A stretch of DNA of 64,000 nucleotides from Parelaphostrongylus tenuis (lineage: Eukaryota; Nematoda; Chromadorea; Rhabditida; Metastrongylidae): NCBI GenBank assembly GCA_019055375.1, contig JAHQIW010004424.1, positions 1-64,000 of the forward strand, given 5' to 3'. This document shows positions 6,001 to 61,740 of the stretch, one piece after another; positions within the stretch are counted from its first letter, which is position 1, and each line of letters opens with the position of its first letter. Position numbers and translations under genes: made by a program. Below the pieces are notes generated by a model. That model saw only the letters and a list, made by a program, of their open reading frames with translations. It was not told the DNA's origin and ran no database searches.

Positions 6001-9000
6001 AAGCAGTTATTAATGGTCAAACGGCGCAAGTTTTGGAACGTTCTTCATTTGCTTTTTGAAAAAGCTCTCTAACAGCGCTGCAGCACTCAAAATAAAATTG
6101 CGTTCAACACGCATCACGTGTTACCGCACGGATTTTCGTTATTTGCTTGGAAATTTATTTCCTGTTTTGCAGCGAATTCCGAGTTTTTCTACGCTGAAGG
6201 TGTAAAAGACACCCTGATCTGTCTTTTTTAGGCTCAAATTTTCAACTGTTTATTTTATCTTATCATCCAGAGCGCCTAATAGCCTATGCTTAAGCAGCCT
6301 ATGCTTATGCATCAATATGAACCTATAGAAGAAATTTTGTAATGTCATAACATGTGCTTATGTGGAGTTTTCTTTTCAAAGTGGCGAAAAAATCTTGGTT
6401 ATGAATAAAAAAATGCACGCCAAATGTGAATCGCGCCTGCGTGATCTATTGATTGCAGCTACTGATCCAGGGTCTCCACTCACCCCAGCCGACAAAATGA
6501 GCGATGTATACAAAGTTGAATCTGATTTTACCTGACACTCTGGAGTCAAACGGTTTCAGGAAATGCAAGTAGAGCGTCGAAATTGTGGAATCTCAGGTTA
6601 CCTGGTTCTTATAATTAAAGGGAAAAGCTCCACTCTACAAGGAAAGCGCATGTGTGAAACACAGTTTAATTTTGCTATGGCACCGTAGAAGAACTTTTTT
6701 AGAGAGCAAACAAATCTTTAGATTTTCCAGAATTTGAGCTACCAAAGGATTATTAACAGTCTGAAGAAAAAGTTTAGCTCTGCGAAAAGAGGTGCCATAA
6801 CAAAATAGACGCGATGAAACGTGTAACGCATGTGAAACCCAATTTTATTATTAGTGCTACAGCGCTGTAGAAAGGCCTTCTCAGGAAAAAGTAAAAAAGA
6901 CAATTCCTCGAGATTTGAGCTTCCGATTCATTATTAAAAGTCTGATGTAAAATCTTTGTCCAGCCAAACATTTTCTTCCACAATACTTATCCAATAGTGA
7001 TGAAAGAATCGACTTTCGTTACATACACAAAAAATAACAAATCAGATATGGCATGATTTGGAAAACCAAGACTCTGATCGAAGGCGAAATTGTCGAACGT
7101 TCGCCATCGATTCTGAAGAAGTTATAAACTTTGCGCGAAAGTTCCATAAAGAACCTTGTGTTAACGAAGTATATCGAAAATCATTCCTTCAATTTACTAC
7201 TGTTTCTTCCATGACTCAAAATAACAGAATAGCAAATATATTCAGCGTTAACAGTCATCTGACCCCAACTAACCATCTTTATTTCTCCAACTGAAATAAA
7301 TGTTCCGCGGGGTGCGAAACAGCCTACGGGCTCCACTCCATTGCTACCGCATCTAAATTGACGCCATCCTTCCTTCCATTCCGAACCTTAAAAAAGTATT
7401 CTACATCTTGTTTCCATCTCCGTTATAATACACTGACTTGCTCCTAAGCCATCTAACGTCCATCAAAACTGCGGTGAGCTATTCTACGATAAAGTTTCAG
7501 AGACAAGGAATATGGACTGTCAACGTAATTTGTCGGCGACAAAGTAGTGTATCTGCAGATTGTAGTACCATGGACGGGAATTACTATGACTTCTCACACT
7601 TCAGCCTACACGCCATGTGATCTGTTATGGGCTCTTGTGCAGCGCGATACACGTGTATTGGTCTTGCCACCTCGTCAGTCGAGCAGGCGCTCTCCGCCTA
7701 TAGCCAGTCCTCTTGAGGGCTCCTACATCGCCTCTCAAAGATTGTTTAGAGAGGAACCGAGAGAATGGCCAAAGACGGAGAGCGCCTGCTCGACTGACGA
7801 GCTGCAAGGCCGAAACACGTATATCGGGCTGCACAAGAGTCCATAATAGACCACATGACATGAAGGCCGGAACCATGCTCATGAGATACATTTGATTTTA
7901 AGCGTGGTCTCAAGAAACCATCTAGAAAAACGGTACACTATAACTTCTTATGAACGTCTTGAACTATTGCTCGACCATTTAGGCTCAATTTCTTGCTTAG
8001 GACGAGGGTTCGTGTTGTGGAAAGATAATCAAACGGATACCTTGAACTCTCTGTTGTCCTTCGCCATCTTTGCATTTTGTATTACCAGATTTACCAAGAA
8101 CGTGTATCTTAGGTAGACCGTTTGGGCCCTTTTCACATTGCATATCGTAGCCATTGACCTAAACTAGGCAAATTAGTATTCTATTTCGTAGCAGTAGGCC
8201 TAAAAACTGGGAGAAATTTGTCTTTCATTCAGACGATATATCAAAGCATATTTTTCTCACCGTCAAATTTCATTTCTGTCCAACTAACCGACTTCACTTT
8301 TTCAAGTAAAATGTCTATTCCGGAAGCCGTGACACATCCCGTGGGCTCCGTACCCTCTCCATCGCAACTTAAACTGATGGATCCCACTGTCCAATCCAAA
8401 CGTGAGAGGAAAAACTTCGCAATCAATCTCTTCTTTGCTATGGCGACTTTTCCAAGATTCATTGTCTATAACAGTGGCATCATGGTCTACTTTGACATAG
8501 AATGTCAAAAATGAGAGGAATTGAGACTTTGATTGAAAACCCTCAGCTGTTAGCTTTATAATTTCCGTTGAAGGTGATGTCATGGTAGAGTGAATCAATC
8601 TAATTGTAGCAAACATGATCAAAATCTTACATTGATCCTTATCACCGAATCTATCTTCACACTGCATCCTTAGATTGCCGTTCGCATTCTTATTACATTT
8701 GACAGTAAACCGGGCCACCTGATCAACACAACTTAACATTAAGCATGTGCATTGGCAAACATAAATATTCAGTAGTTAGATCGTCGTTGATTGGCAGTTC
8801 TTATCCTCCTCACATTGGACATTGAAAGCATTTACCTAGTCAACACAACTCAAACGTGAGTATATGCAGTAAAAATACTCTAACTCCAAAACTATAGCCT
8901 CAAAAATGGAGAAAAAATCAAATTTAAATTCTTCTCAGCGCCATTGGTTCATCTGCATAGAACTAACCGTCATCGTTTGTCCAATTGGAATGTACGTGTC

Positions 9001-12000
9001 GGGTGGTATGACGCAGGTTTTAGGCTCCGGCTTGCCGTTTGAACCACATCTTACCAAACTATATGTTTCTATCCATTCCGAACCTGAAAAGAATGTTTTA
9101 CATTGCAAGCTCATTTCTGCTATACTAAAATGACTTTTCTTAATGACGTCTTGATATTAAAGGTTTATAGTGACTGTAAATGAAAGATATTAAATATTAA
9201 TAGTCCATAAGCGACTCATGTTTATACATGGGCAGAGAGTTGAGAATGCAGCATGAGCGGATACATGTTTACCTAGTTCTCTATCACGTTCTTCGTTATC
9301 TTTACACGTCGTCGTTATATCGCCGTTTCCACTTTCCACACATGCGATGCTTGAACCATCCACCTGAGCAGCACAACTTAAGAATAGTTGTATGCATTGA
9401 TAAACACGAAAAGTCCTCAAGATATAGTTTTAAACGGCGAATCAAATTAAACTGAGTCTTTACCATAGCGTCATCACTTCGGCAGTAATCAACTTACCGA
9501 CGTCGTTTGTCCTCTTGGAATATATGTTCCTGATGTTGTGAAACAACCCGTGACGTTCAAGTGCCCTCCTTTACAGCTATAACCGTAAGATTCATCTTTC
9601 CACTCCAAAGCTGAAAGGAGATATTTCACATTCCGTTATATTAGTATGGTATCGTGAGTTGTCACGCAACCAACTGTTGTCTATCACGTGAAAGTGTAAA
9701 ATATGAAGAATATCAAAACTGTCAATAAAAGTATTCAAGGAGGAAGTTGTCATTCTTTAAGTTTTTGTACGAGCGAAAAGACTGGGACTGTAGTAGATAT
9801 TCATGAAGTTTTACCTTTATTACTATCACCGTTGATATTTGTACACTGCGGCGTAACAGTGCCGTCTGCATTCTTGTTACACCATTCGACATTGAAATCA
9901 TTCACCTGAGCGACACAACTTGAGATTAAGTATGTCCGCTGAGAGATATCAAAACTTCAAAAGACTGTTTTATTGAATGTAAAATAATTAATCAATCCTG
10001 AATCATTGCAAGCTACACATGAGCTTCTGGTACAACACCAGGGAGCTGTAAACATGCATGGCTTGTCGATTGAGCAGTTCATGGTCCTGTTAAAAGAGTG
10101 CCTGAACTGCTCAATCTTCAGATGGTCCGGGAAGTATTTCGCACAAATCAGAGGGCTGGCAATGGGGCAGCGACTGGCGCCTAGCCTAGCGATTGCCTTT
10201 ATGTCGAAAGTAGAAGCACCAGTGATGGATCTCCGGTCATTACTCTACTGTAGGTATATAGATGACTGTTTGGTTATCTGCTCCACTCAAGAGGAGCTAG
10301 ATAATTGCTTTAGATTGTTGAATGAACAGTCAGAGTATATAAAGTTTACCCGTGAGATACCAAAATATCATTGGCTTCCTTTCTTGAACGTGCAATTAAG
10401 CTTAAGCGAGAGCGGCTACATCACAAAGTGGTACCGGAAGCCAAGTAGTAAGAATATCCTGGTTCACTATCTCTCATCTCATCCCTCACATACGAAAAAG
10501 GCGCTAGTAAAGAACATGTTTCGAACAGCAGCCAGCGTATGTACTGGGGAGGACCAGCGAGTAGAATCCGTGAAACTGGCTCGGGAAATAGCCACTTCTA
10601 TGGATATGAATTTGTAGCCCCTCGGCTTAGGTTTAGAGGAAATAGTGCGCCTTCGAACGAAATCTCGAATGAAAGGGAAATCCCGTTCATACTCCCGTTC
10701 TTTTCAAATGAGATTAGTACAGCTATAAAACGCTGTTTGAAAAGGGCGGGTTTAGAGTAATCGGTGGCTCATTGAAATACCACCGAATACTCTAAAACGC
10801 CAACTAGTTCGCAACCGCTTATATGACCGTCTCTGTATAATGAAAGATTGTAAAATATGCCCTAACGGCAGAGACGGTGATTGCTCGAGCGTAGGTACAG
10901 TCTACCTAATCTCTTGCAAAGCGTGTAGCGATAAATATATTGGCGAAACGGTAGGCCGCTCTATGCCCGCATAGAACACCTAGCTGATAAGCGTCTTAAA
11001 AGACGGAACACCCCGCTAGGGACGCATAGAGAACAGAAACACAACGAAGCTGATTTTGAGATTGAAGTCACCATCCTTGCGCAGGAAAACCAAAAACATC
11101 AGCGCGAAAACTTCTTGAAGCACTTTGGATTAATACCACCAATCCAACTATGAACCGCAGGGAGGAATGCCTTGTTATCACACGTGATTTTAGTCAGTAT
11201 ATAAAACTGTTATTTTGATGGGTAAGGTGCATTACGAGCCTATGTGATCTCCTTGCGGTGGTCTCCACTTAAATCATTCAGTGGAACACATATAAAAAGC
11301 GGTGAGTATGTTGAGAGTTGATTTTGTGCTTGATGCGATTGAAATCTAGGTCTGGTGATTTTTTCTAAGGGAGTATTGGAGGTGTTTGGCTTATTGGATT
11401 GCGGAAAATTTGACCTTTCCAGGCTCTGAAGAAGGCGAACTGCCGAAACGTCAGCTGTGAATAAATTTTATTGTAACACCTCGTGTTTTGCTTTAAGAAG
11501 AAAAACAGTAATTATATTGAAGCATGCCGAGGTTAATAGACAGTCGGTCTTGGGAATCCTGAATCTTTTTTTTTTCAGTGTCAGCGGTTTATCTGCATAG
11601 AACAAACCTTTTTTGACTCTCCAAATGGAACGTATGTTTCAGCTACTGTAACACCCATGGTCATTACACCGTTGTCAGTGCATTGCAACTGATACAATCC
11701 TTGTTTCCATTCCGTACCTGAAAAATCTATTTCATTTTTTACCTTTCTCGGTATCCCCTAGGAGCTCACTTCAGCTTAGTTTTCCTCATATTAACATCGA
11801 ATCATTTCCGCATATTGAAGTGTCAAAAGCTAGGGATATCATGATATGAAGAAGAGTTTTTGATTAATAATAAGCTAATTGACATTCGAGTTCGTATATG
11901 ATACAGGGCCTGGGACTAGCATAGGCAAGTACGTTCACCTTGATCTCTATCCTGTCCTTCCCTATCTTTACACTGCAACGTTGCATTGCCGCTTACAATT

Positions 12001-24000: not shown

Positions 24001-27000
24001 TTGCTACCACACAAAGACATTCTAAAAGCAACAACTGTCTCTCACAAACTCGCATCAATGTCCTTATGTATTAAATATCAGTGATTACATTTACTTTAAT
24101 ATGCAGAAACCCGTATATTTTTCTTCACTACCGTCCCTCTATAATGAACAATTTGAGAGCACCTCGCTGGGCAGAACCCATATCCTTTTAGGTTAGGGAA
24201 ATCCAGGCCAGCTTCGCGAGGGAAAAGTTGGTTCTGTATAATCAAAATGAGAACAACCTAGTTTGGATATCCCAGCACTTTAGAAATTGCCTCGAGCAGC
24301 ACTTGGTGATACTTATAACGTGAGAAGTTTTCTGAAGAACGCGTCAGCACTGTAACTCTTTGATTTCCACAGGCGCAAACATACGTGTGCAGCTGAATAA
24401 GGTGGACTGTCTGCCCCATCTCCTCTGCCACTCTCACCGCGGCGTGGTGGCGGCTCCACTTCCTTCTCAGCGACTTTGACCCCAGGGTGGGGATGCACTC
24501 TCTGCCTCACTTTCCTATGTCACCCGAAGCAGTGGCACGCGACCAGCAGTCCGCAGTGAAGGTTGCTGGCTCGATCCCCTACCGCACCACTTCACCGCAG
24601 TTTTTTTTGGTGTTAGCTCTTTGTTTATACTACAGTATGCTGGAAACACTGGCACACCATCACCTTTATCACCAGTCGTCCCGTTGTCGTCAAGTGACTT
24701 AAGCGGGCACCAGCAACACTTCCATTTTTTCCTATCGCGCAAGAGTAGCCCAGTGGGTCCTTCTCGCTCTAGGAAATTGTTAAGCATCATACTTTCTTCT
24801 AATTTCGTGAAAAAATGGGATTGTCGGGTCGGTGGTCTTCCTGTAAAGCTCTTGATATCCCGAGCAATCCAGTCGAAGATGGCTTCCGTCCGTAGGTTGT
24901 CCTTGAAGCGCACCACTAGTCCGAGTCACCTTATTTATCAACATCCTGCCGTGTAGAACGGCGTCTTTGATTTTCGATCGTTGACGCAGGCCGGAACTTG
25001 GGATTCTTTCTCTCATTTGCGAGATACGCGATACTCCTAACATCGACCTTTCGATTGTGCGTTCAATGACGCCACGTGATCTTTTATCCTCCTTACGTAG
25101 CGACGAGGTTTTTAATGCATGCGCTAGGGCAGGGATTATCGTCGAGTTGAAACGGTGGGCACGGAGTCACATGATCTTGTTCTCTACACTACATCCTCGA
25201 TGCCCTTAGACGTTTCCCAAGCCGATCGTTTCCTCCTGCTCAACTCTGGAGCTTAGTCGTCCGTCATGTTGACTTCACAACTTAAATAGGCGTAACTGGA
25301 GCACTCGGAGATATTCGTTTCGCCGAGCGTGAATGTAGTATTTAAAACCCATCAGTTCCTCATGAACATCGTTTTCGTTAGATTTACTTGGAGGCAAATC
25401 TTTCCACACCCGCTTCCACTGAATCAAAGGCTCTCTCTCAATTGATGAAAATGAGACAGAGCGGTAGTTTACACTCTCATAAAACTTCAATGAGTCTTGT
25501 GATCGTGTGGATGTTTTTCCGTGTGGATGTTAAAAAATTTTCGGAATCCTGCTTGTTTGCATGGCTGTCCGTCGTCCAGTGTTCTGTCAGTCCTATTATG
25601 GATGACTCGAGTGAAGAGCTTGTAGACAACGTACAGCAAGAAGACTGGGCCATAAATGCCTATGCCGTGGAGATCTCTCTTTTTGCAACAACACGGCCTT
25701 GCTGGTTTTCCATGGATTGGGAACCTTGAATTCTGATAGATAGCGAATGAAGAGCTGAGCTAGGGTATTGATGAGAACTGGCGGTAGGCTCTTCAGGGAC
25801 ACCATATCAAACCATCATTTGATTCTTTCAGATTAGGAGGGAACACATGAAAAATTGACACCATTCGCTGAAGAAAAATTTTACATAGGAGTGCTAATAA
25901 CCATACAAAAGCTGAGACTTGAGTGCATAGCCCCGAATCGCCGGTTTTCAAAATACCCTGTCGCTACGCTGCAACATCCAATAATAAAATGATGTTTCAT
26001 GAAACCATGTCAAATTTTCCCTTGCCTTTCTTATATTTCGTTGGAGAGGACTGCTTCCTCAAAGTGCTAGTTTTCAAACTATAGCGTATGCTTCAAACAA
26101 CTCAAAAAAGTGTGTGATTTTAAAAAGTTCTTTTGGTCTTTTGATTTGTGCTTCAAAACTCGCCGAGCAGAGATTTTTCTTTAGACAATTGATAATCATC
26201 TGATGTAGTGATGTTTTCTGATTCTAATGATGAGCTTAATTTTGGAAATACGGTTTAGCAGGAAAACAAGATCGAGTTCGACATTTTTGGTATCGTTGTT
26301 ACAGGGTGTTTGACAAGGCGAAGGCCGTGGCAGCGGACGTGGTAGGAGCGGGAAGAGGGGAGATGATCGATATTTTATTGTTCAATTGGGAATTTTCATT
26401 ACGTTTCCAAAAAACTCCAGACGAAACGATTCACTAACATACAAGGACAATTCCTCTACACACTGTTATGCTTTTCGGCTTCCAGCGATTTATGAGCGTG
26501 ATAAAAACGTAGGCGAAAAGCGAGTGTGAAACATATTTTTGATCTGGATGCTACAGCGTTATAAAGCTCTGTTTGGAAAATTGGCGACGTGATGCTGTAG
26601 GCTCAAGTCTAAGCTTTCGAATAGTCACTAACACTCCTATGAAAAGTTTCACTCTAACGGATGAGATCGGTTTTTCTTTTGTTTCTTTCTAATCAGAAAG
26701 AATCCATGTTTTATGATGTAGTTACACCGTAATACAAATGGTCAGTGTAAGTGCTTGATTAGCACTGACAATCTGCAACTAAATTACATTATAAACTGCC
26801 ACATTATCATTCAGGCGGGCAAAGCTGGATATTTTTGTTACCTTATGGATTTGCATTTTGTATCAAAAACTAGTAAAATACTAGGCAATCAAAGGTTCTT
26901 TGCTAAATAATACGATAAAAAGGACCTTCACTATTATTAATTGACATCAAAAACTACAGTGAAGTGTTGTGGTAAGAGACGGAATCGCCCGCCTTCTCCC

Positions 27001-41479: not shown

Positions 41480-43060
41480 AGCCAAGTATCACCTGTATCA
41501 CCTGTCGTCCCGTTGATCGTCGAGTAACTCGAGCGGGTACCAGCAACTGTTCCATTTTTCCCTATCGAGTGCAAGAGTAGCCCAGTGGGTCCTCCTCGCT
41601 CTAGCGATTCGCTGAGCATCATACCTTTCTTCTATCGCTTTCGTGAAGAAATCGGATCAGTGGGTCATCTTCTTTTAGTGCGTTTGATGTCCCGAGGAAT
41701 CCAGCCGGTAACGGCTCTCGTCCATCGGTTGTCGTTGAAGCGCATCACGTGTCCGGCCCACCTTATTTTCGATATCCTGGCGTGTAGAACGGCGTCTCTG
41801 ATTTTCGATCGTTGACTTAGGTCGGAACTTCGGATCCTTTCTCTCATTTGCAAGATACGGGATACCCCTAGCATCAACTTTTCGACTGCGCCTTTGATAA
41901 CGCCAAGTGATTTTTCATCCTCTTACGTAGCGACCACGTTTCTGTTGCATATGTTAGGGCACGGATAATTGTCGAGTCGAAAAGGTGGGCACGGAGTCTG
42001 ATGTTCGTTTTCCTCTTCACTGTATTCTCGATGCTCTTAAACGTTCCCCAAACCGCTCGTTTCCTCTTGCTCAACTCTGGAGCTAGGTCGTTCATCATGT
42101 TGATTTCACCACCTAAATAGACGTAACTGGAGCATTCGGAGATTGTCGTTCCGTTGAGCATGAATGGGACATTCAAAACCCATCCGTTCCTCATGAACAT
42201 CGTTTTCGTTGAATTCATTTGACCTGTCCTTCCGCAGTCGTTATCGAAATCGATCAACATTTGTTCCGCTTGGCTGATGTTTGGTGTTATGAGAACGATA
42301 TTGTCAGCAAAGCGAAAATGGTTTAATTGTCGACCGTCAATTTTCACTCCCCTATCGTCCCATTCTAATGTTCGCATGACGTTTTGTAGGGTGGCAGTGA
42401 ATAGTTCTGGCGAAATTGTATCGCCTTGTCAAACCCCTCTTCTTGCGTCGGTGGTGATATTGTTGTAGAATTGAGATATTTTTATCGTTAAATTTTCTAT
42501 AAAGCTCACGAAGGATCATTATGTACCGAGTAGGGACGCCCTGGTTATCCAGAGCCTCTATAACCGCTTCTGTTTCTACTGAATCAAGGGCTTTCTTCAG
42601 ATCGATGAAAGTGTGACAGAGTGGTTGTTTGTGCTCTCGCGAAACTTCAATGAGTCTTGTAATCGTGTGGATGTGGTCTGTAATGCTAAATCCTTTTCGG
42701 AACCCTGCTTGTTCGCATAGCTGTCCTTCGTCCAGTGTTCTGTCAATCCTGTTTAGGATCACTCGAGTAAAGAGTTTATAGACAACGGACAGCAAACCGA
42801 TTGGACGATATTTGCCTATGTCGTGATGGTCTCCTTTATTGAACAACATTACGGTGTTGCTGGTTTTCCATTGAGTAGGGACCTTGCATTCTGACAGGTA
42901 GCGAGTGAAGAGCCGAGCCAGGGTGTTGATGTGAACTGGCGGCAGGTTCTTTAGCCAAGTAAGACTCCAATAAATGTCGTGCAGCTCTTCGGTGCCGTCT
43001 GTTGCGCCATTTTGCAGATCCCCACATCCTTCCGACAGCTTGAGAGTGAGTCAATTTTTG
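41480..43060 (-). mobile_element. RTE-type LINE, 5'-truncated
   Basis: The minus strand encodes, with frameshifts, the pre-RT segment (PPVHINTLARLFTRYLSECK), RT (IGKYRPIGLLSVVYKLFTRV, AGFRKGFSITDHIHT, HFRFADNIVLITP) and the C-terminal WAGHVMRFNDNRWTRAVTGW...LDDQRDDR end. The endonuclease half is missing. The catalytic FADD is FADN, so the enzyme would be dead even without the frameshift near 42,365. Confidence 0.8.
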
Positions 43061-46570: not shown

Positions 46571-46839
46571 CCAGCGAGTAAAACCTTTAAACTACGTGTA
46601 CCTCAAGTAGACATGCCGTCCTATAGGGGTTCGAGCATCGCGGCAACATCTTGTGCTCAAAAAACCTCGGAAAGGGAGCTCAAGCTACAATTACATCCAA
46701 TAATAGCATCGCACATAATAAATCAAAACTTTGAACAGTTGGCATTAGTAACGCTTTTTCTGCCAACAGAAATCTGCAAAAACATCTTGGTTCCTTACCT
46801 GTGATCTCATCCGTCACACGTAGAACGCGCGCTTCTAAA

Positions 46840-47795
46840 AAAACATGTTTCGAACAGCGACCACTGTGTGCACAGGAAAAGAACATTAAGCAGAATCTTT
46901 GAAGTTGGGGAAGAAAATACCATCTTTAATGGCTACGATACGGCAGGAGCTTTGCAGGTTAGATTCAGAGGGCATTCTATGCTCCCAAACGACAAGTGTG
47001 GCGAAAATAGGGTCTCTTTCCTTCTGCCTTTTATCTCTACGATTTATGCACAGCTACTAAACGCCGCTTAAGAAGAGCAGGTCTAGATAATTCGGTAGCA
47101 ATGCTTGAAATACTCTCAAAGACACTAAAGCGCCAATTAGTTCGCAACCTACTGTATGAGCGCCTCTGCGAAACTAATGGCTGCAAAGTTTGCGCGTACG
47201 ACAGAGACGGCGACTGCATGAGATCGGGTATAATTTACTTGATTTCTTGCGAGACATGCGGCGATGACTACATCGGCGAAGCGGGTAGACCACTGTTCCT
47301 CCGTATAAAAATACCTAGTTGGGTAACGCAACTCTGATCCAAAAACCCCATTTGGCATGCGTAGGGACCAAAAACATACAGGAGCAATGTTTGGCGTCAA
47401 CTTTAGAAGCCTTTGGATACATAGCAAAGACCCAAAAATGAACCGAAAAGAGGAGTGCCTCGTAATCACGAGTGACCCCGAACCATATCTCAAGCTGATC
47501 TTTCCGGCCTGAGTTAGGCACAGCCCACTAATGCACTGACGTTAAGCGGCTGGTCTTCAATGAATAATTGATAGTCCTGCAACATCAAGCGGTGAGTGTT
47601 TTTGGAATTAAGCTTATACTATGAGATTAAAAACTCATTTCCTACATTTTCTGCTGGAGTTATGGAGATTTGGTTTAAGGGAATGTGGATATATTTGACC
47701 TTTTCAGGCTCTGAAGAAGGCGACCCGCCAGAACGTAACTGTATTGTTGTATGCTTCCCTGATATTCAATAAACAATATCAATAACACCCCGGAA
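46840..47795 (+). mobile_element. Penelope-like element, second copy, decayed
   Basis: From MFRTATTVCTGK on it parallels the 10 kb copy: an RFRGHSMLPND linker, LKRQLVRNLLYERLC, a C..C finger-like patch, then SGIIYLISCETCGDDYIGE (GIY-YIG core) and MNRKEECLVITSDPEPYL. The frame breaks at least twice. The RT is missing apart from its last residues. Confidence 0.75.
47707..47740 (+). ncRNA. Small hammerhead-like motif at the second PLE end, degenerate
   Basis: GGCT CTGAAGA A GGC GACCC GCC matches the 11.4 kb copy, but GAAACGTC has become AGAACGTA, destroying the core. Confidence 0.4.
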
Positions 47796-48064
47796 TGGCT
47801 TAGCAGAAGAAAATACTCATCTATTCAAACTACGTTGAGATTGATATATAGTCGGTTCTGGTACTCATTGAAAATCTGCAAGTTTGAAAGGTTTTCAATC
47901 TAACATGAGAGGTGATCTAAGCTGAGATATGCTACCTAGTAATATATGTTGTAATTGAAGTTCAGATTCGGAAGACTTCAATAGAACATCATCCGAAAAT
48001 ACGAAAATATACCTACATAAATGTGTCTAGGTGAGTAGAGAAAGCACGTGCCATACTGACACTC

Positions 48065-48335
48065 TATAGACCCGTCTTCACAGTTTTTTTTTACTGCGCG
48101 GATCCCAGTACTTCAAGCATTTCATTCGTTTTTTCGTCTTCTTCATGATTGTAGAATACTGATTGAGCGCGTCTTTTTGCGATCTCGAGGATAGCCCGGC
48201 TTTGGCATTCCATAGGGCGTTCGTTGTTGACTGGCGGAAAACGTAAGGGAGAGGTGGGGTGGGGGGGGGGGGGGGGGGGGGGGTATGGGGGCACCGCGAC
48301 GAGCGTCACACCAATTGGCCGCGGCGCCCCCATGG
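48065..48335 (+). repeat. 265-bp repeat family, copy 4, with a 23-G run
   Basis: Same order of blocks as the other copies (CTGCGCGGATCCCAGTACTT, GGCATTCCATAGGGCGTT, GCGACGAGCGTCACACCAAT). Its purine-rich section has grown into a pure G run at 48,261-48,283. Confidence 0.65.
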
Positions 48336-48710
48336 GGCATATTGGCGCAGTAAGAGCAGCGAATACACAGTTGAGTACTCTCACGTCTTAGAGAAGAAGA
48401 GAGGTGCTCTTTATTATCGTTTAGAATCCTATTTCCCACCTGGAGACATGCCGAGTTGATCTGATAGCTAATTCCATGTAACAATCACTGAGAAAAGTAA
48501 GTTGCCTTGAGAAAGTAAGTTCAACGAAACAAACAAGTTGGCTGTTCTGATAATCATAAAAACGAATCCATCGCACATCTATGAACTGTGAACTGATAAG
48601 ATTTTCCCGACAGTTGTAATATTTCAGCATTTATTTTCAAAATCAAGTACACTGTGTCCAACTGAATGCTTCTTCCTCCTGTTTCCTTGTTGCTTTTCTT
48701 CTTTTTTTTA

Positions 48711-48899
48711 TTAGATTTGCTCTTTCAGGCCTCTGAAAAACACTCTTTTAGAAAATGCAGAAAGAAGGGATAAACTAATTGCATACACAAGTATGTGTGG
48801 CATGATAATACCAAAAGTGGAGACGGCGATGAACACTGAAAACAAATAGAGGCAAAGACGATCGACTGCCATGGCTGCAAATCTCCACTCTGATCGAAT
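48711..48899 (-). CDS. nAChR exon 14: TM4 and C terminus
   Basis: [20 protein letters not shown] (W.FAAM..DRLCL signature), TM4, then a tail ending LKEQI and TAA. The stop is followed at once by TAAAAAAAAG, so AATAAA lies across it; a true poly(A) signal this close would leave almost no 3' UTR. Confidence 0.85.
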   Translation of the reverse strand: MRSEWRFAAMAVDRLCLYLFSVFIAVSTFGIIMPHILVYAISLSLLSAFSKRVFFRGLKEQI

Positions 48900-51800
48900 C
48901 TATAATTAGATTTGTTCTAGACACATTACAAATGTTTTACTCAACTTCGACAATCATATTTCCCATCAAAATACGACAGCATCCATTTCAAAAATCAAGA
49001 GAAAAAATTTCAGCTGGGCCGAGATTCCAGTTCAAATAATTAAACATTGGAACCTTGTGATATAAATACTAGGCTAAGGAAAAAGTTCCTTAGTACCCGT
49101 AAAAACTCGAATTTTTATGTTTGTTTCACGCAGTATAAAACACTGATTTGTCGGAAGCGTGCGCTGTTTCAGCAAGACAATGAGAAATTTTACACCTCAA
49201 TGAAGTCTAAGGAAAAGTTTGAGAAATTGGAGTGAGTCGAAGTCTTGCCATACCCAGACTATAGTCTAGAAGCTGCGCCGTGATTATGATTCAGTTTCAC
49301 TCTTTTGGAAGATTTCCTGAGTGGACGCCGATCCGAGACATCTGATGAAGTCGAAGAAATATGTCAGGATTTTTAAACTCAAAGTCCAAGGAATGGTATT
49401 TCGAGCAGATCAGAAGCTTGCAGATCGCTGGCAGAAGATCGTGGATAATGATGATGTTTATCTTGAGAAACAGTTAGTTGTTTTTAATTAATTCATGTAA
49501 TAAACTTGAATTTCTGAACAGCGTTAAGGATCTTTTTCTAAGCCTAATAATTTCAGTTGAAATAATATTGACGGTGGCGGGTGCATGATTTTTCAGGAGT
49601 TTAGAATTCCAAAAAGTCACAATGTGTCTTTGGAGAGATATATTTCACTACTTCCCTTGTGAATAGTCTGCTTCACATTTGAGATTCAACAATTTCTTTC
49701 TCTCACAAGACCATTTCTGATTCAATTTCAATGTTAAATGACGTGCAAAAAATAAAAGATCGTACTAATCAATCTTCTTTTAGAGCCTGAGTGAGAAGTT
49801 CGTTTCGTTTTTTCGTTTTGTTTCGTTTTTTTTGGAAGCACTGGCTAACGTTTCGCCTACACGCATCTAAGAAACGTTGATTGTATGAATAGATTCTGTT
49901 AAGACGGCTTTTGTTCTTTGCACGGAAAGACGTTTGAAACAAACTCTTATGTCACTAGGTCAAATGGACACGATATAGTCAGGAAAGATGTTATAGGCCA
50001 TTTCCAGGTTGAACATTAGCGGCTTACGCACGTTCCTGTGGTTTCGCCCTCTTCTCACGTTACATAGATCCGTTCTGGCTCCAGAAAAAACGAAGTCGCC
50101 GAAATGTCAGCCATCAGATTCGAGGGGGACATACAATTCTCGCGCAAGTTTTGAATAAATACTAGTTCCTCTTTTCCTTCTTGCTCCATTCGTTCCTTTC
50201 CTTGAATTGCATGAAAGACCGGTATGTAAACAATTAAGTGCATTCGAAATGAGCAGCGCTTAAATGTAGGAGAAATGTAGCCTTGATGTGGACAACCATA
50301 TTCACTCATGTTGAGGTCTTCTGGATGAATATCAGTATTCTCACGACGAGGTGACACTTGTAGGTCTTATCTTTTTTCTTCGCAGTTTATTTTGATGCAC
50401 AAAAGTTCGCCTTGGAATTCTCTTAGCAGTCAATAGGCTATCCCTTTGGCTTACACGGTGATATCTGAGCGTGACATGCGACGCGGTCGCCGCATGGGTG
50501 GGCCGCACTCTAATGACAATTTGGTAGTTCTCTGATGAGTCTCTTTTGTGATATTCCATTCAGTCGGGGCGAGGCGGGATGCTCGCCAATTTGGAATTCT
50601 TTCGGGCACATTGCGGCTATAGGTGCATCATATATGGTACAAGTAGAAGACAAACGGTTAGGTATGGAAAATGCTATGGCATTCGTCGATCAATAAAAGA
50701 GTTATTTTTAGAATTTTCTCACTTACATGTTTAAAAAGTGTTTCTTGTTTCGGACAAGATTAGTGGTAATGTTTGTTCCGAATAATCAAGTGAAAAAAAT
50801 ATTAGGACGACAGCACATTTTGGTCCAGATGGTGTATTACATCCACATTAAACAAGCTATCGATAAATCATAAAAAAAAATCAAGAAGAAAACTGTCTAT
50901 ATCAACACTAAGTCACTGAAAACAAGTTTGACACCTTGACTTTTTGAGTAGAGTTTTATATAAGTATATATATATATATTATAGGTGAGATACGCTGCTG
51001 CGTAGTTCAAACTATAATGATTCATTCCTATATTTGCAAAGGAACATGTTTATGACAAAAAATAGAACGATAGTGTGCTTGATCAATTACCATTTCGTTT
51101 GTATACGCGTCGTTGATCACTGAAGACATTTTTTCGAGGTCGACGTTGATCTCTTTTAGTTCCTCACAGAACCGGTCAAGGTATTTCAGATATGGTGGCC
51201 AATTCTCTAAAATAACGAAGAAAAATAATGATATTTGTACACTCATTTTGTAGTCGCAACAGTTATTTTCGAGCCATGCATGTGGTCTGTTATAAGCACT
51301 TATGCAGTGCAGTACACGTGTTTCGGCTTTGAATCCTTGTCAGCTACACGGTGCCTTTCCTCTGAGCTGATTTCTTTCGGTGGAGAACACCTTCACATAA
51401 AGGAATGTCGACGAACGAAAGGTATGATATTTCACGATTACCAGTCAAGAATAATCGAGTGCACAACAGTGCCCGTCCAGTGATTTTATCACTTATCGAC
51501 GCGTGTAAAACGTTCCTCGACGATTACTTTGTGTGAGCTTATTCTGTCCCAAAAGGAATTGGCTTAGACGAAAGGCACCGTGCAGCTGACGAGGATGTTA
51601 GGCCGTAACAAGTTGTATTACATTGTGTAAGTGTCCGTAACAGATCACATGTGCTGCTCAAAAGTAACTAATAGGCATATTGAAATTTAGGTGTCATCTC
51701 AGGAAACACTGAAAACGAAGGTAGTTGTGACACTGTTCTCGATGATTAAGTGATAACACGCAGTTGACAAAGACTTTTAGGTTCTGCTCGGTTATGAGAT

Positions 51801-54800
51801 GATAAATCAAAAATCGACCTCATTCGCAGGGCAGAAGCTTTCCATAGGAATGTTAATAACAATTTGAAATCTGAGACTTCGAACTACAGCCCCGTGACGC
51901 TTTCCAAAAAGCCCGTCCCCTCTTTGGACAAAAACGCGGGTTCGACTCCCGCCTGAGGTCGTATTTTTGTTCGCCATCAATTTCTCTTAGGTATTTATGA
52001 AACATCATAACACTGAGAAAAGGCAGAGAAAACATTGAAAATTTCAAGCTTTACTTGTCATAATGGCTGTCAGCTCAGCTGAGTTTATAGAGGAGATTGC
52101 ATACCCGACCAAACCTTTTGAAGGTTGGTGGCTTCCAGCTAACACAGAAATATTGAGGAATGAGTGGTGGCGCTAATGTTTTTTTTGGTGTTGTGGTGGT
52201 AGCACACGTTCCCGGTATGATGAAACGCGGGCTCGACTCCCGTCCGAGGTCGTATTTCTGCTCCCCATTCAAATCTCTCGAGAATTTATAAGAAAGCCTT
52301 TTTTTCAAAATTTTGTTAGAGAGGGAGATTTCTCTTGCGTTGCAGACGCGCATACTTCCTCCCGGCCAGGGCTCTTTTATTGGACTATTAGTAGTCATCC
52401 GATAGAGTAATCGTGCTGATTCCAATGACGAGCTCATATCCTAAAAAGACCGTTTCTTTGCTGAACTACTTGTTGTAAGAGCGGTCCAAGATTGAACGAT
52501 CATCGCCTCAGCGCACGCTGTCACGCCAGCCAGCGCACGTGATTGCCAAAGACCCCTTGGTCGCAATATGCGAATCCAATTTATTTTGGCTGCTGCGTTG
52601 TAGAGAGAAGGTTTTTTCGGACACAAGCATAGCATTGGAATCAACAGCAATTGCGCTATCGAATGATTACTAATAGTCCAAAGAAAGGGCTCTGCCCGGC
52701 AAGAAATATACACATCTGAGACATAGTTCTGTGTGGATTTGACAGCGTTATGAAAGCGTGTTTTGAATAATCAGCGACATGGGGCTGTAGCCTAAAGTTT
52801 CAGCGTGCGAATAGTCACCAACACTTCTTTGAAAGTACCTTCCGAGCAAATGAGGTCGGTTTTTATCTGCTCCCTCATAACCGAATGGAACCGAAATCAA
52901 TGACATCTCTTTTTCTACCCTTCTCCGTTGTGGAGATTCTTCTGATGCAGGTATCGTTAGTTGAATGTCCGGGCAGATTGATTACTGGGAATACGCTGAG
53001 ACGATGCACTGGTAGAATTGACTTGTCGATCACCTAGGATTTATCATAATTTAGCCATGACATTTCGAAGAACAACATTGTGTTCGCCACTAAATTTCAA
53101 AATTCAACAAATACATTATGTAATAATGTAATAATATAAAATATGTGTGCTACAATCAGCGATTTCGCGCACCTTTGGTTTTGGTGCTCGTGGGTGATCC
53201 GGAGTCCGCATCATTAGAATATATGGTAGCCACTCGACAAAAACTCGTCTCATCTGAGAACAGTGGATTTGTAGAGGAAAAAATGTAGCGAAGACGATGG
53301 AAACATTGCAGTAGTTTGTTATGTTCAAAAGCAAAACAAAAATGAGTTTAATATCATAAAATCTGGGATCCGCACAGTGAAAATAGGTGTGAAACGGATC
53401 AAATAAAGTGATAGAGTGGTGGTACTACTGAACAATTTGGGTCTATATTATGAAAATCATGACACGCTTTGAAAAGCAGCGAAACAAAGTATTATTGCAA
53501 AATCGATTAATAAAATTTTGTACATAGAAGGAAGGACATAACTTTCTTTTTCATCGTTATGAAGACTGGAAATGTTTGAACTCACCAGTGGACTCATTTC
53601 GTGAGTTTCAGCTTTTCTTTGGTGCAAACATATAGTTAGCACAGTGAATACACATGAGCAAGCCACTACCATTAAGCAGCACGAAAAGAATGAAGCTGGC
53701 AAGTAAAATTTTGCTGAGAAGTTAAAAACTGCAGCGATAATGAAAAACTCACCGAGAATCGGAACCGATTTGGATTGTGGTGGACTCATATTAGAAACCA
53801 TTTGAAGAAAAAAGATCACCGACAACAATACAGTGGTCTCTGGAGAAATTTTTCTTCATCACTTTTGAACACTTTGATCCACTTATTGACTTGCATAATG
53901 TGGGTGGGGCCCAGTTATTGGCGAAGTAATGACGCATACGCAGCATGTGCATCTAAACTGTCCGGGAACCCACAGGCCACCTTCAATGGCTGATAAATTG
54001 ATAGATAACTTCTTTGATTAAGATTGGCCCCAGATAACGAAAGTTTGCAGGAGTTTCTGCGGATAAGTGCAGATGCGGAAATGTCTTTGTACACATTTTC
54101 CAGAATTCCGACGACCAGTTCGAGTCCCGCCTGACGCGAAAGTTTCACACATCACTCTACATCTTTGGATTAATCAAAAAACATCATACCACTGCTGGAA
54201 ACTATCAAATAAAAAGGATTCCACTTATTCGACTAGTATTAATCGCAATCATGTAAGGAATAAGCCATAAGTGGCAGCTGCCGAACTCAAACTCAAATGA
54301 GGTGACCCTCGTGGAGGACGGATGTAAAGGAATGATTAAGGATGTGATGCTAATACAACATTATGTGAAAACCTTTTCCTCACCTAAGGTGATCTTTTCG
54401 CATGCATCTGGTGGAAGAGTGAATCCAAGTACTGTCATCATTGATATTACCAATGACGGAATGATTAGATTGATACCGTAAGCTAGAGTTCTCCTACGAA
54501 TGTGAATGTAATAGTAGAGCTCATGATACGATGCGTCACCAAACTCAGTAACCACACGAATTCCAGGGGTGCCTGGAACATCATGAACGAGTCGCCCGCA
54601 TTGTTCACTGTGTGAACAAAACATCTTCGATGATGATTATATCGCATATAGCGGCTGTAAAATCTTTCCAGAACGGGTAGGAAATAGTTAGACTAATTAT
54701 GCATGTCAGCAACTGAATACTATAAGTCATGGAAGTGAAACATGTCACATTGGTCTACCACACTCAAAAGACTAAATTAAAATGTGTGTTTGTGATTACT

Positions 54801-57800
54801 CCCCACCTTTCTCATTTCCCCTAGGATTTATTGACTAAACAAGATTCTTTTACTGCTATCTACAATGTAATCTGTGTTTCCAACGTAATTTCTTAAGCTG
54901 AAGTGCTTAACGATCCAATATTAAAGCCCAGAGAACCGCGAAATATCTAGGAGACTGCACTAAGCTCAAAAATTCCCTTTGAGGTCAGTGCTCTTGAGAT
55001 CTGCGGATTGAGATAAAGTTGTTCACATAGTGCTTTCCAAAATAATTAACGTCTAAGCGGATTTCAATTATTTCTCTCATTATCAATTGCCCTTTCCAAT
55101 TTTTTTGGACCTGCACTGTCAGGATTAATAATAATTCGGTGCTAAACGTCAAAATGACGGAAAGCTTAAGTGGTAAAAGTTCTTATTTCACAAAACCGCA
55201 ACAATTTCATGATGAATTCTTTCCGTCAATGTAAATTACATTCATCGGAATATAAAAGAATGGTTAACATACTGATAAGATCCCATTCGCCATTCTGTAG
55301 GTACACCTGCAGATCTATTGATTCGTTAAGGAAGTAGCTGTCAGGATTATCACCATAAGGACGACTTATTGCTTTTATGGGGGAACCTCTAACACCTGAA
55401 ATAAAACAAGTTCACATGCTGCTTAGTGCTAAAGAAGAACATTCAGTGTTTTGTGATGTATTGGCAATTGTTAGAAATCTTTCAAAAAGCACTAGGTCCA
55501 TGATAAGAATAAGAGTGAGACAATGGAAATCATTACAGTGGTTTGTACGCGTTCTTCCAACCTAACGTCTCTGCTAAACTAACGTGAAGAAAATTGCCAA
55601 TATCTTAATAATTTTGGAGATGTTCACGTAATGACTACAATGATGACGTTATCTTCCTCACAAAACCAATGCCATGAACCAGCGCACGTTTGGGTGTCGA
55701 TTATTTCTCCTTGCACAATACTTATTTAGTTTCAATATTAGTGCGGAAATTTCATGAAGTTTTCTCATGGTTTAAGTAGTTGAGTGGTTATTGCTCTCAA
55801 AAAGAGTCACAAGCATTATAGCAATGATTTTTGGCCCGTTAGCCATATTGGAAATATTTCAAGAATCACGTCAAAAGTTGAGCCTCGTTACGACTTGTCT
55901 CAAAAGTTATGTTTCGAAGAATAATTATCATAAAAGCATCTTGGAAGAAAATTATTGCAGGTCGTCCTCACACCTACATGGAGGAATCTTCCCACAAACT
56001 AAGCTATCCTACAGCTGCACTTTCATTCAAACAAATGGTTCTCTCGACTTCACATTTATGCTACCGTACTTTGATGTTCATGAAAACCCCGCTGAACTCA
56101 TGATATCAACTCAACATTAAGACACAAAGCACCTTCCGATTTCAGTCAACGCACAATTTCACACAATCTAACGTTTACGACAGAAATGTTTCTCTATAGA
56201 CTTAAAAGAAAGCAAGAAAGGAATTAACGAAAGGATAGGGATAGGCAGTGAGGTCTACACGGTTGGGTAAAGAAGCTAAGTAAGTACACAAGCTGTTCCT
56301 TTTACTTGAAGTAGCCAAAAAGTTTGAGTGAGTGCAGACTAAGCAATCGAGATAAAAAGGAAAACTCAAAACTTATTAGCTTTCATTTTCGTAAAAGACC
56401 GATCAACACCATTGGCTTGTCTGGGATTTTTAATTCCGGGGCTGGCTTTGGGCCCACATGGAGCAACGATTGATGGTGTTTTTGCGATATACATGTTGTT
56501 ATTAATTCAATTCAGTATTTCGGGAGGACTAAGCCACAAATTCTTTCGGTATTACTAACTACAGTTGCTTGAGAAGATAAAAACAATGAGTCGATACGAT
56601 TATATGCTCCCAAGTCTATTCATCAACAAATAAACATTTCGACACCTCTCCTGCACTATAAATGGAGTTGAGTGCACGATTCATCCTTTACCATTAAGCC
56701 AACTCCAAAATCATTATCGTTTTTATATTTTATGTTTCCCTACGATTTTACCGACAATCGTCGCTAGCAGAAAATCTAAATTGATCTGCTTTCCATTGTA
56801 TGTCCAACTTCCAATTTGAGGAAACACGTCTGCTTGTCGAATGGGTAATAGGTGACGTCGACCTAGAATCAGCGAAAGGAATGCAGATGAAAACTTGCAG
56901 AAAAATTCCAATCGACTATAATTTCACCTTGCAAATAAATCTGAATATTCCCGGCGGATTTTGCTGTACCTCGCCATCATAATTTACGATAAATCGTGAC
57001 GAATATGTGGAATCGAATGCTTTTGAAACACTGAAAGAATCAGACGTTTCTGTATTCAGTGAATGTTGTTTATCACACGACAGCTATAGTTGGAGAAATA
57101 GTTGTAATAAATCAATTGTCTCTAGAACATTGAGTGATTATGCAATGCATTCGACATTAGACGGGAGTTGAACACGCATTCACTCACACCAAAGGCGCGT
57201 ACTACCACTACATCACCGATACCACCGTGCGGCTACCATTCTTTTTTCGATCAAAAATATCGCAGCTGTCAGGCTCCATCCTATAGCCTGATTTATACAT
57301 GCTTACTAAACCAACTTGTTTACCCTTTGAGGGTCGTGGAAAGTAAGCGGCGTCGCGCTGATCGCACATGCGGCAGAGTCGGAGCAATCAATATGCACTG
57401 GAACGCGTGACGTTCAAAATGTTGTGGTTTCGTATTAAAATTCAAAGTCTTACCATCACTAGGAGAATTTATGGCTCAGTAGTCGGTGGGACATATAGAG
57501 CACGCTTCAATAAATCTATCTGCTATTGAAGCAATATCAAAACAATATAAAAATCATGAGATGTTTGTCAAAAATGCTCGTGCACAATATTCTTTTCATT
57601 TGGCGTGCAATGAAACATGTTCGTTGACGATATCTTTATATATGGGTGTCGGTTGAACTAAATGGCAGGTGTTACCTATGAAGCTTGACAGGGATTGCGA
57701 AAAGCTCGCCAAGCGTTAGAAGTGCCATACCAGACCGCTGAAAAGTTTTTGCTATCAGGTTGTATTGAATTATAAGCGGGGTCTTGAAAAACAATTGAAT

Positions 57801-60800
57801 CAAAAGACATATCCTTATAGTTCGACGTGCTCTCAAGATGATATCCTTTACATCGTCCATTCCTACATCCCCATTTAGCTCTATTGAAATTACTTGTAGG
57901 TGGTTTTGACGATCCATCGATGCATCAGAGACCTCATTGTCCGTCCACTTTCTTTCAATGTGTATGTTCCTCTGTTTATACTAGAAAAAGGCTACCGCCC
58001 GACTGATGAGACCGTCAAGCTCGAAATACGTGTATCGGGCTCTGTAAGTCAATCCTTATAACAGACCAGATGACATGCTGGCTCAAACAATAATTGCGAG
58101 ATATGTTGAAATTTGAGTGTGGCCTTAAGAAAACACTTGAAACGAAGGTTATGATAAAAGCAATGAATTAAATTAAATTGGCAGCAATGAAATATAGATT
58201 GTGTAACACAAATCTTTCTTTTTGTTATCTGCATGCCAATGTCGTAGCGTTATAACTGTTCAAATATCCAAGAATGCCAAATGCGTGTGAAGTCGGAGAC
58301 TCAGGTAGGAGCTGAGTCGCTCCCAGTAAAGTGAAACATGAATTCAACTTCCGCTTGATGTTTAGATATTTGCATATCACTCAGCATCTCTAGGTCTATA
58401 GTCTTTGTTCTGTTTTCAGGAAGTTGTAGCACGTGACGTTGCATCCTATACGATGATTATTAAACACATTTTTATTTATATACTCATCTTATATAAACAT
58501 AGTGCAGAATTTTATTCGAAAATATCTTAGCAAACGCGATGTAGAATGGGAAAAGATAAAGAAAATGCTAATCACCTGTTGAATAACAGCACATCGGGTC
58601 TCCATAGCTTGAACGGAGCATCCTGCCCACCAGCAAACCTCACGTCTCTTATACCACCGTATAGCCGTGGATCCCAACGAAGTTTATAGTCGTTCCAATG
58701 CTATCGTAATGCTTTTAGTTGTTGATAACTTATTTTTATTCGGTATTCTGAGACTTACAAAATCGATATAAGCGAGAATTGTCATCACTTGATTCTTCTC
58801 ATCCTAAAATTTGTTTGGTTTAGAGACAATGCCACGACATGATGTCATAGATGTTTCAACGATCGATATATGATCACTATGCAATGCTGAATAAATATCT
58901 TTTACCACGTCGAGGATCTGATTCAATAAAAAGCGGACTTTTACGTCCAACGGCATTGAGTTGTTCTCCACTGGTCGTTCAAAATGATCGTAGTTCTAAA
59001 TGAAATTTCAAATTTAGAATAGTCATTCTACGAGAATTTAACCATTTTCTGGGCCTGTATGGTATTCATCTAGTCTTTATTTCTACACCTTCACACATTC
59101 AGAGCACACCGACCACCTAGAAACTCTCGCCTCCCCATGTACCAAAAAATCTATGGCGCGCCAGCTTTCCCCTCAATGTTTACTAATAGAACTCCTCTGT
59201 TATCGTAACTTATGTGACACAAAATGAAAAACGAAGCATAGCATGTTCAAAACAGAACTAAGAGACATGAAAATGATTAATGACGAGGCAAGAATTCTGG
59301 CCGAATTTTGAGCAGTCATTGGCGACAACGATTGCATCCGCAGTCTTTTCTCTGTTACGCTCACATATTGCGATATCACACTAGGAAAAAAAAAAGAAGA
59401 GACAAGAAGAGGCAAAGGTTTTTGCACAGCACTTTGCATTATTGAGTATATCAAAAGAAGAGACAATCTCACAGTAGATCGATTTTCTTTCCGGCATCAA
59501 AGGATCATTTTTTGACTAAAAAGGAGACACTGGATTATTCTGACAATTGCTTTTTTGGAGATTGTAAATCCGGTGCAGTTCACAGCACGATTGACTTTTC
59601 CGACGGCCTTCGGGGTCCAAAAGTAATTTGCTAGTCCCGAGAGTGGGTTAATGATCAGCATAGTATAATCACGAGAGACGGCTCTTCAGCGTGGGAGCGA
59701 GACAAGAACAGGGTGATCAGTTCATTAGAACAGAAGTAAGAGGTTAATAACACTTCTACACTGGCCTGAATCTCTTGCTTCTTCGTAATAGTGGCGAGTT
59801 CTCTACTGTGACATGGGCGATTTTGACCAAGATCTGCTTTGTAGCACTACTTTGTTTGAATCACACTACAACGTGGCTTGCAGCTGTTCAGATAAACGTT
59901 ATGCCAAAATTGTATTGAGAAAGCCGAAGAAAATTCATCATGACTTAGGAAATAATAGATTTTCAGTTGTATTTTATGGAAGGGACGTTTAGGAGAAATA
60001 GATCCATTTCTAATGCCATAATAGCACTCACTGATGCGCTATAGTCAAAATATTTTAGATACAGTGCTCTGCTAAGAGTTGTATGCTTTTTTCTAGTTCA
60101 AAAGAATGAAGCTTGAAATTTGAGCCACAAGAAGCAGAATGTTTGATGCTCGTATAATATGCGAGAGTGTTATGCAGATAAATGGACAACGCCTTCTTGC
60201 TCACCTCTTAAACACTGTAATTTTCGCTGCCACATGTTTTCTCTTTTTTTCCAGAAATCTGGATTTTACATGATGAAAAGTGGGTGAGTTTCATCGACAA
60301 TCTTTCGGAAGCGATGTTTAGTGCCAGACTGAAGTGTGGGAAGGTATTGAGAAGCTCAATCTAGCTTACGTATTCTTCCAGTGGTTAAGTTATAAGTTAC
60401 ACATTTGGGTCTGATGAGTAAGGCATTTTGACAACAACTCTTAGATAGGTCATGAACGATCAATCCTCGCGTGATGGTGCCTCGAGAGGGCAGGAGGAAG
60501 CCCATTGATCATACTCAAACTTCACGAGATTCTGCAAAGCACATTTGTAGTTCTTCATGTTGTTGAGCCAGCAAGACAAATATCACTCTTGAATTCAACA
60601 ACAAATGGAGATGTTGACTTCATTCAACGTGGGAAACCGTCGGTATACATGGCAATAAGCCTAAGACATGCATCAGCGTTACTTTGAGCTATTATTGTTT
60701 CTTTATAGATTTCAAATTTATTGCTCAAGAAAAGTGAAGAAAAGATATGGCAAGTATGTGTAATAATTTTTTCTCAAAGCCATAAAAATGTAACCTCCTT

Positions 60801-60887: not shown

Positions 60888-61359
60888 AGCGGACAAAAAC
60901 GCTTTTTCGACGGCCAAATTGCCGGATGAGGAGATCAATAGTGTAAGTGTAGCTGGATTAGTCCGCGCAACATACATCAGGGAGTTCGGCGAACTAATGG
61001 AGCATGAAACGATTCAGCAGACACATACATCAAATTTTCGCATAGACCGACGGTCTCAGAACACTGATAAATCTCATGATAACGCGACGGACAAAGAAAG
61101 ATGGAGAAGTAGAGTACATAACGTTTTCATGTCATGCATATTTTTTGTACGCAGCTGCACTTCAGATGACGATCGCTTCAATCTGAACAATAGCTTAAAT
61201 TTTTCTGACTTCAATAAAGAAGCGAAATGGCAACAACCTACTGTTAGAGAGGGTGGTGCCAAACATTGCAGCGTTATAAGTCCATCATATTTCCTCCTTT
61301 ACAAAAATTCTGTTGACTTACTGATTTATCTATGCATGGGTAATTATTATTCGAGCCAA

Positions 61360-61740
61360 CATGTCATGTGTTCTGTTAAATGAGCTGACTTATAGAGCCC
61401 GATACACGTGTTTCGACCTTGAGTGTTTCATCAGTGGAGCGGTACCCTTTGTCTTTTGTCGATCCTCTTGGGGCGCTCAGTCCACTATTCTAAGATTAGG
61501 CGACGACGAAAATTTTACACCGTCCATCAAGTGAAATTAATACTGAATGGGCAGTGTTGTACACTCGATTGCTCTTAGCTGGTATCGTTAATATATCATA
61601 ACTTTTGTTTCGAGTGTTTTCTTAAGACCACGATCAATTTCCGATATATCTCATAATAGCTCAAATAATAATTATGAGATATATCAAAATTTGAGCGCGG
61701 TCTTATGAAAGCACTCGAAACAAAATGTATAATATTTTTC
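61360..61740. mobile_element. Foldback-family element upstream of the nAChR gene
   Basis: The minus-strand arm CATGTCATGTGTTCTGTTAA to GGTACCCTTT (61,363-61,450) holds a hammerhead motif. A second inverted repeat, TTTTGTTTCGAGTGTTTTCTT and its inverse, pairs 61,610-61,668 with 61,674-61,732. It lies about 470 bases upstream of the receptor start codon. Confidence 0.6.
61397..61440 (-). ncRNA. Hammerhead ribozyme-like motif
   Basis: On the minus strand: GCTCCA, CTGATGA, AACA/GGTC (stem II partly broken), GAA, ACACGTGT, A, TCGGGC. The catalytic core is fully canonical; stem I has one mismatch and one G-U. Confidence 0.6.

Follow-up and report, generated by a model that had tools for sequence, protein, structure and literature searches.

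What kind of element carries hammerhead-like sites in inverted pairs, and how does it insert into chromosomes? The question is raised by six short sites in a 64,000-nt stretch of the nematode Parelaphostrongylus tenuis (positions 1 to 64,000 of contig JAHQIW010004424.1; hereafter the window), whose repeat family is referred to here as the six-site family. The reading that we favour, with a probability of about two in three, is that the sites are type I hammerheads in small, non-autonomous, retrozyme-like retroelements inserted by machinery of the Penelope-like element (PLE) type, probably through reverse transcription from both sides of a DNA break. The genome evidence for this reading comes mostly from a relative with a 284-nt unit, not from the six-site family itself. 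It supports a correction to the initial annotation, which had placed the sites in foldback elements: the relatives are not foldback DNA transposons but retroelements that bear target-site duplications.

All six stretches lie where the initial annotation had placed them, three on each strand (Table 1), and alignment showed that their homology reaches past the motif into the flanks, as expected of one family. The annotation had fitted every site to the motif CTGAYGA...GAA...ACACGTGT. This stands for three (7788, 57997 and 61397), which retain a type I core (CUGANGA and GAA, three stems, open stem I), whereas invariant positions are altered in the other three. Three of the six sites contain the exact 8-mer ACACGTGT. 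A further complete core was found at 32166-32213. When the window was scanned with a strict descriptor, two sites were recovered (58003 and 32172), whereas 400 dinucleotide shuffles yielded 0.01 sites on average (one site in each of four shuffles). Compensated changes in the stems were likewise above shuffled controls: 11 cells were altered on both sides of a pair versus 3.9 after shuffling, and the covariation score was 0.456 versus 0.266, with 0/500 shuffles as high in either case. The sequences are few and related, and two coarser measures of the five used were weak (six pairs with two-sided change, 28/500 shuffles as high; 11 further pair types, 268/500). Repeating the analysis on seven sites and on ten (alignment fitted to the structure) gave a similar outcome, and shifting the pairing partners by one to three columns lost most of the pairing.

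Hammerhead covariance models, which the initial annotation had proposed to apply, gave a divided answer. Across the genome, 20 of the 31 matches to RF00163 that were listed pass the Rfam gathering cut-off, while sites in the window stay below it; full-length matches were obtained for 57997-58040 (19.7 bits) and 61397-61440 (16.1 bits), both under the gathering score of 34 and only when short stretches were scanned. A covariance model built from the six sites found ten sites in the window, among them 32166-32213, which has unrelated flanks and scored 30.3 bits. As background we used a pattern scan of prokaryote contigs: the core was matched seven times, with 0 to 4 of the 6 stem I pairs formed, and these matches reached at most 24.4 bits under this model. 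The three weakest window sites (24.3, 20.3 and 18.1 bits) do not exceed that value and were retained because of flank homology, two lying in copies of the six-site family and one in a copy of a 268-bp unit. One exact-pattern scan of viral sequences gave zero matches. Taken together, covariation, the two full-length RF00163 matches and the detection of 32166-32213 by the six-site model support the identification of the sites as type I hammerhead ribozymes, of which those with broken cores are predicted dead.

Stem III of these hammerheads is a palindrome with almost no space for a loop, a property that in folding models favours dimers. The lowest-energy two-strand fold of 32166-32213 is a double hammerhead (-48.3 kcal/mol, compared with -16.4 for the single strand), and 51307-51349 is predicted to form a double hammerhead in which the third pair of stem II is missing. 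In the two-strand folds of 57997-58040 and 61397-61440, the strands pair through the 8-bp palindrome and the remainder is rearranged; for 7788-7829 the palindrome is paired only in part. The palindrome measures 8 nt in the six-site family and 10 and 12 nt in two other unit families, and it recurs with changes that preserve its symmetry (ACAGGCGCCTGT, ATAGGCGCCTAT, ACAGGTACCTGT).

The foldback arrangement described in the initial annotation was recovered at 7.6-8.0, 51.2-51.7 and 61.3-61.7 kb, and it extends to other hammerhead units elsewhere in the genome. The six-site unit runs from an upstream region through the hammerhead to a tail, and at these three places two copies lie head to head with their tails facing outward; at 7.6 and 51 kb each arm holds a hammerhead that points outward. 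In two of these elements the outer ends are not equivalent. At 51 kb the minus arm ends at unit position 101 and the plus arm at 156, and at 61 kb the corresponding positions are 102 and 161, so that the plus arms end 55-59 nt beyond the minus arms; each element thus has one near and one far 3′ end. The minus arm at 61 kb is one whole unit opened within the tail, which is what copying of a circular or tandem template would give. No inverted partner was found for the tandem copy at 58.0 kb. The long tail had been considered as coding, since four copies have an open stretch of about 17 codons; this candidate was dropped, since comparison of the tail peptides with PLE proteins gave nothing convincing (best E 0.86) and no codon-position bias was seen (count by eye).

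The same organization was found on a larger scale in the 481.5-Mb assembly (5105 contigs). A search with RF00163 returned at least 31 matches (at least 20 over the cut-off), 74 of 119,811 candidates having been scored. The 31 matches listed define loci L008 to L038, from which L011 (an inverted near-copy) and L013 (an overlap) were removed to leave 29. L010 and L011 lie on one contig (C821) as two 3-kb stretches in opposite orientation that are 99.97% identical, representing either a recent duplication or an assembly fault. All 29 loci match the 284-nt unit, and 21 contain a divergent head-to-head pair; the sole convergent neighbour pair (L036) bridges two elements. Short units in tandem, as in retrozymes, were also found: an array at L023 with four hammerheads spaced 284-285 nt, the partial tandem at 31957-32311 and the 58-kb copy. 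No frame for reverse transcriptase and GIY-YIG endonuclease lies inside the pairs, because the arms abut or are separated by no more than 135 nt.

Among the paired 284-nt copies, 3′ ends cluster in two ranges of unit positions, 55-100 and 116-142; a single end, at 13 (L037), belongs to neither. In 19 of the 21 pairs a near end on one arm goes with a far end on the other, some 50 nt further on (p = 1.1e-4 versus coin tossing; 20/22 including the convergent pair). Target-site duplications accompany many of these ends. Among 21 elements (18 of the pairs and the one-orientation elements L023, L028 and L031), 13 have a direct word of 8-15 bp common to both outer flanks, compared with 4.8% of 420 mismatched end pairs, and nine have a word of at least 12 bp, compared with 0/420. 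Where direct duplications surround a pair, the whole pair looks like a single insertion.

A resident PLE provides the comparison. The nearest relatives of its reverse transcriptase are in strongylid nematodes including Angiostrongylus (A. costaricensis, 75%), and a host gene fragment is 91% identical to Parelaphostrongylus tenuis over one quarter of its length. Four PLE coding stretches lie in the window (2182-2268, 4701-5645, 9994-11215 and 46661-47503). The 5′-truncated copy at 10 kb is flanked by a candidate 8-bp duplication, AATCCTGA, at 9994 and 11555 (spotted by eye; the window has four occurrences of this word on that strand). A protein search of the genome, in which 58 of 27,965 candidates were scored, located at least 58 places; many of these hold an open frame of about 893 codons, and one tandem is spaced at 2985 bp. 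Within the pseudo-long terminal repeat (pLTR), the motif GGCT CTGAAGA AGGC-GAACT-GCC GAA ACGT C AGC was present at 29 of the 30 loci retrieved (some of these belong to a single array), and in the reference copy its core lies 99 nt upstream of the start codon. Judged by its sequence, this motif represents the minimal hammerhead type known from PLEs; an Rfam search up to E 10 did not recognise the copy in the window (11422-11456). An inverted pLTR piece was found in eight of the 30 loci, with both ends readable in seven; L050, where the inverted piece ends elsewhere, was left out of the end count. All seven combine one near end (294-310) with one far end (340-359) and carry duplications of 9-13 bp, compared with at most 7 in 42 mismatched ends. 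Because architecture, end rule and duplications are common to the 284-nt pairs and the PLE, they point to one kind of machinery, and the likeness of the ends of the related repeats to those of the resident PLE suggests what may move the hammerhead units.

According to the proposed mechanism, tandem transcripts would be cut by their hammerheads into unit-length, possibly circular RNA, the cutting perhaps being aided by the pairing of two palindromic stem III sequences. The reverse transcriptase and GIY-YIG endonuclease of a PLE would cut both target strands and, at each DNA end, start reverse transcription from one of two fixed tail positions. Joining of the two 5′-truncated complementary DNAs (cDNAs) head to head would then yield a foldback. 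If each side of the break started from one site, the two arms would lie head to head, one ending near and the other far. A bolder extension, which we regard as quite a long shot, is that the palindromic stem III ties two hammerhead RNAs together and so gives the PLE enzyme two templates, one per DNA end, each with its own start site. If true, it would account for the co-occurrence of dimer-type hammerheads, head-to-head pairs and the one-near, one-far rule in both the PLE and its non-autonomous relatives.

Many observations weigh against insertion of these units by PLE-type machinery or qualify the support for it. The loci were sampled through a match to a hammerhead model, and eight of the 29 have a single orientation. 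The end rule fails at L009 (84/98) and L037 (55/13), the ends at L010, L014 and L026 are close to the cut of 108 between near and far, and this cut was chosen after the clusters had been seen, the ends themselves being those of BLAST alignments. At 7.6 kb the minus arm stops at 89 and the weak alignment of the plus arm reaches 225, beyond the far site, and no target duplication above chance was found at the old window copies. The resident pLTR matches only two places in the window, both PLE and neither a hammerhead unit, and no autonomous PLE carrying these exact units was found; the tail peptides, as noted, did not provide a link either. As to the ribozymes, an Rfam scan of the whole window up to E 1 and scans of short stretches at 7 kb and 51 kb returned no hammerhead match, and single strands did not prefer the hammerhead in monomer folds. 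Finally, partner-arm hammerheads, which were not selected by the model, are kept at 0.913 versus 0.836-0.901 for other parts of the unit, a modest edge.

Several of these points bear on other explanations. A cDNA or antisense transcript could fold back and copy itself, the palindrome then inserting whole, as was proposed and preferred for rotifer Penelope copies (PMC3846280). The centres of the 7.6 and 61 kb pairs are almost symmetric, 11 of 18 pairs align with themselves inverted through the middle (centred 11-59 nt off the junction), the arms at L012, L024 and L026 are nearly identical, and in 10 of the 21 pairs both arms have one to three near-private letters in common; all of this would suit such self-priming and counts against two independent starts. 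At L020, L021, L033 and L035, by contrast, 7/15, 7/16, 3/7 and 4/12 of the differences between arms lie between recurrent letters, as two templates would give. A hairpin copy should also end alike on both sides, and the outer ends are unlike in 19/21 pairs and in 7/7 PLE copies, so that we regard self-priming as unlikely. Inner arm ends also differ, by at least 20 nt in all 18 pairs computed, though snap-back within the unit could yield the same; an earlier use of these unequal inner ends to exclude self-priming was dropped in view of the self-inverted alignments and the mixed arm differences. Unlike outer ends also speak against a DNA transposon with long terminal inverted repeats, whether a foldback element or a miniature inverted-repeat transposable element (MITE), that carries hammerheads by chance. 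Its inverted arms and direct duplications are present, but a transposon of this kind has identical outer termini, whereas here the ends are of two kinds with one of each per element, the arms are truncated at varying inner points, head-to-tail tandem copies and copies longer than one unit exist, and no transposase was seen among the 10 window frames scanned. We consider it very improbable.

The units could instead be solo or internally deleted pLTR pairs of an as yet unseen autonomous PLE subfamily rather than an independent family. Their architecture equals that of the inverted-pLTR copies of the PLE, and capture of foreign sequence between pLTRs has been described (PMC3846280); the missing match of the tail peptides to PLE proteins and the 284-285-nt spacing of the L023 array, too short for a PLE frame, make this origin somewhat unlikely. 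It is also improbable, in our estimate, that the hammerheads are fossils without present function whose conservation reflects only recent shared ancestry. Half of the six window cores are broken and relatedness inflates the comparison with shuffled controls, both points in favour of fossils, while changes in stems I and III are compensated across families and the slight advantage of hammerheads in the partner arms argues the other way. Insertion of retrozyme-like units by PLE-type machinery is the reading that we favour.

Hammerheads in PLEs, inverted pLTRs and tandem animal retrozymes are already known. Minimal type I hammerheads of PLEs and Terminons (Cervera and de la Pena 2014; Lunse et al. 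2017; Arkhipova et al. 2017; cited in PMC7761336, PMC11167929 and PMC6431247) resemble those studied here in a minimal or absent helix III, tandem occurrence and proposed action as dimers, and the resident PLE has such a minimal motif; the six-site units differ in having no PLE reading frame and longer palindromes. Animal non-LTR (non-long terminal repeat) retrozymes (PMC7229834) have units of 150-450 nt with one type I hammerhead, low GC, tandem copies and, when present, target-site duplications, as in the present families. They are described as tandem repeats, whereas head-to-head pairs dominate our sample, and the words inverted, head-to-tail and orientation are absent from the main text of that paper. 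Penelope of the rotifer Adineta vaga (PMC3846280) shows head-to-head inverted pLTRs, an optional extra tail on one of them and 8-10 bp duplications, a combination that is also found here, most strongly in the 284-nt family and with the end rule at two pairs of the six-site family. The rotifer copies differ in being autonomous elements, relics or captured genes, and the word hammerhead is absent from the main text of their description. The protein of the lizard (Anolis) Poseidon PLE, PAc, cleaves as well as extends both strands, starting from two neighbouring positions within a stem-loop (PMC11167929); the likeness extends to a hammerhead near the start of the frame, and foldback products are not described in the available text of that source. 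PLEs and Terminons have been proposed as "likely candidates" for moving animal retrozymes (PMC7761336). Our literature search, whose coverage did not include several key papers, found no account of head-to-head retrozymes or of the near/far end rule.

Table 1. Hammerheads, hammerhead-bearing repeats and PLE copies in the window (activity as predicted).
Feature	Position	Strand	Details
Foldback element, six-site family	7601-7993	both	minus arm 7743-7601, near 3′ end; plus arm 7757-7993
Hammerhead, minus arm of 7.6 kb element	7642-7684	-	AAT in place of GAA; predicted dead
Hammerhead, plus arm of 7.6 kb element	7788-7829	+	intact core; stem I 6/6 including one G-U; stem II weak
Foldback element, six-site family	51255-51723	both	minus arm ~51418-51255, near 3′ end; plus arm ~51406-51723, far 3′ end
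Hammerhead, 51 kb element	51307-51349	-	core CTGACAA, predicted dead; stem I GTGTAG/CTGCAC all paired
Hammerhead, 51 kb element	51580-51625	+	GTA in place of GAA, extra stem III base; predicted dead
Tandem copy, six-site family, ~1.8 units	57586-58159	+	far 3′ end, unit position 166
Best hammerhead of six-site family	57997-58040	+	intact core and stem I; cleavage predicted after 58034
Foldback element, six-site family	61339-61738	both	minus arm 61659-61339, permuted unit of ~316 nt, near end; plus arm 61658-61738, tail only, far end
Hammerhead, 61 kb element	61397-61440	-	intact core; single stem I mismatch
Worn minus arm, six-site family	31332-31510	-	hammerhead-like 31410-31450; overlooked in the initial annotation
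Worn plus arm, six-site family	32321-32494	+	hammerhead-like 32417-32457; pairs with worn arm at 31.33-31.51 kb
Partial tandem, second family, 268-bp unit	31957-32311	+	from alignment
Near-perfect hammerhead, second family	32166-32213	+	10-nt palindromic stem III ACACCGGTGT; not in the initial annotation
Diverged copy of 268-bp unit	4150-4444	+	worn hammerhead 4305-4353
5′-truncated PLE	10002-11554	+	pLTR match 11215-11555, ends at far site (342)
Minimal PLE hammerhead in pLTR	11422-11456	+	GGCT CTGAAGA..GAA ACGT C AGCT
Second, worn PLE copy	46661-47736	+	degenerate hammerhead motif at 47711
Diverged PLE fragment, reverse transcriptase to GIY-YIG end	4701-5645	+	2182-2268 may be an upstream piece

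The second family in Table 1, with its 268-bp unit, also occurs head to head in L022 and L023, and the six-site family does so in L028. Near position 106 of L020 (minus strand), GTACTG CTGATGA GCCCGGAAAAGC GAA ACAGGCCTGT C TAGTAC apparently represents a further hammerhead family. Other features of the window include a 250-nt palindrome at 34531-34780, with arms 81% alike and weak microRNA matches (mir-2329), which is probably a MITE-like repeat. A T-arm-like match to transfer-messenger RNA (51935-51952) lies within a short direct repeat (51932-51998 and 52223-52289) that is perhaps derived from a transfer RNA. Two related reverse transcriptase copies at 24659-25796 and 41488-43050, about 80% identical and unlike the PLE, probably belong to another retrotransposon class, and numerous mutually similar segments between 610 and 22875 suggest a local tandem-duplicated array of genes or repeats.

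A family of hammerhead units and a resident PLE with open frames thus have an unusual, countable insertion signature in common, and the six-site family shows the same signature at two loci of the window. This signature is compatible, moreover, with reverse transcription proceeding from each side of the target, as was seen in vitro for one PLE protein (PMC11167929). Because it is shared, the link between retrozymes and PLEs becomes directly testable.

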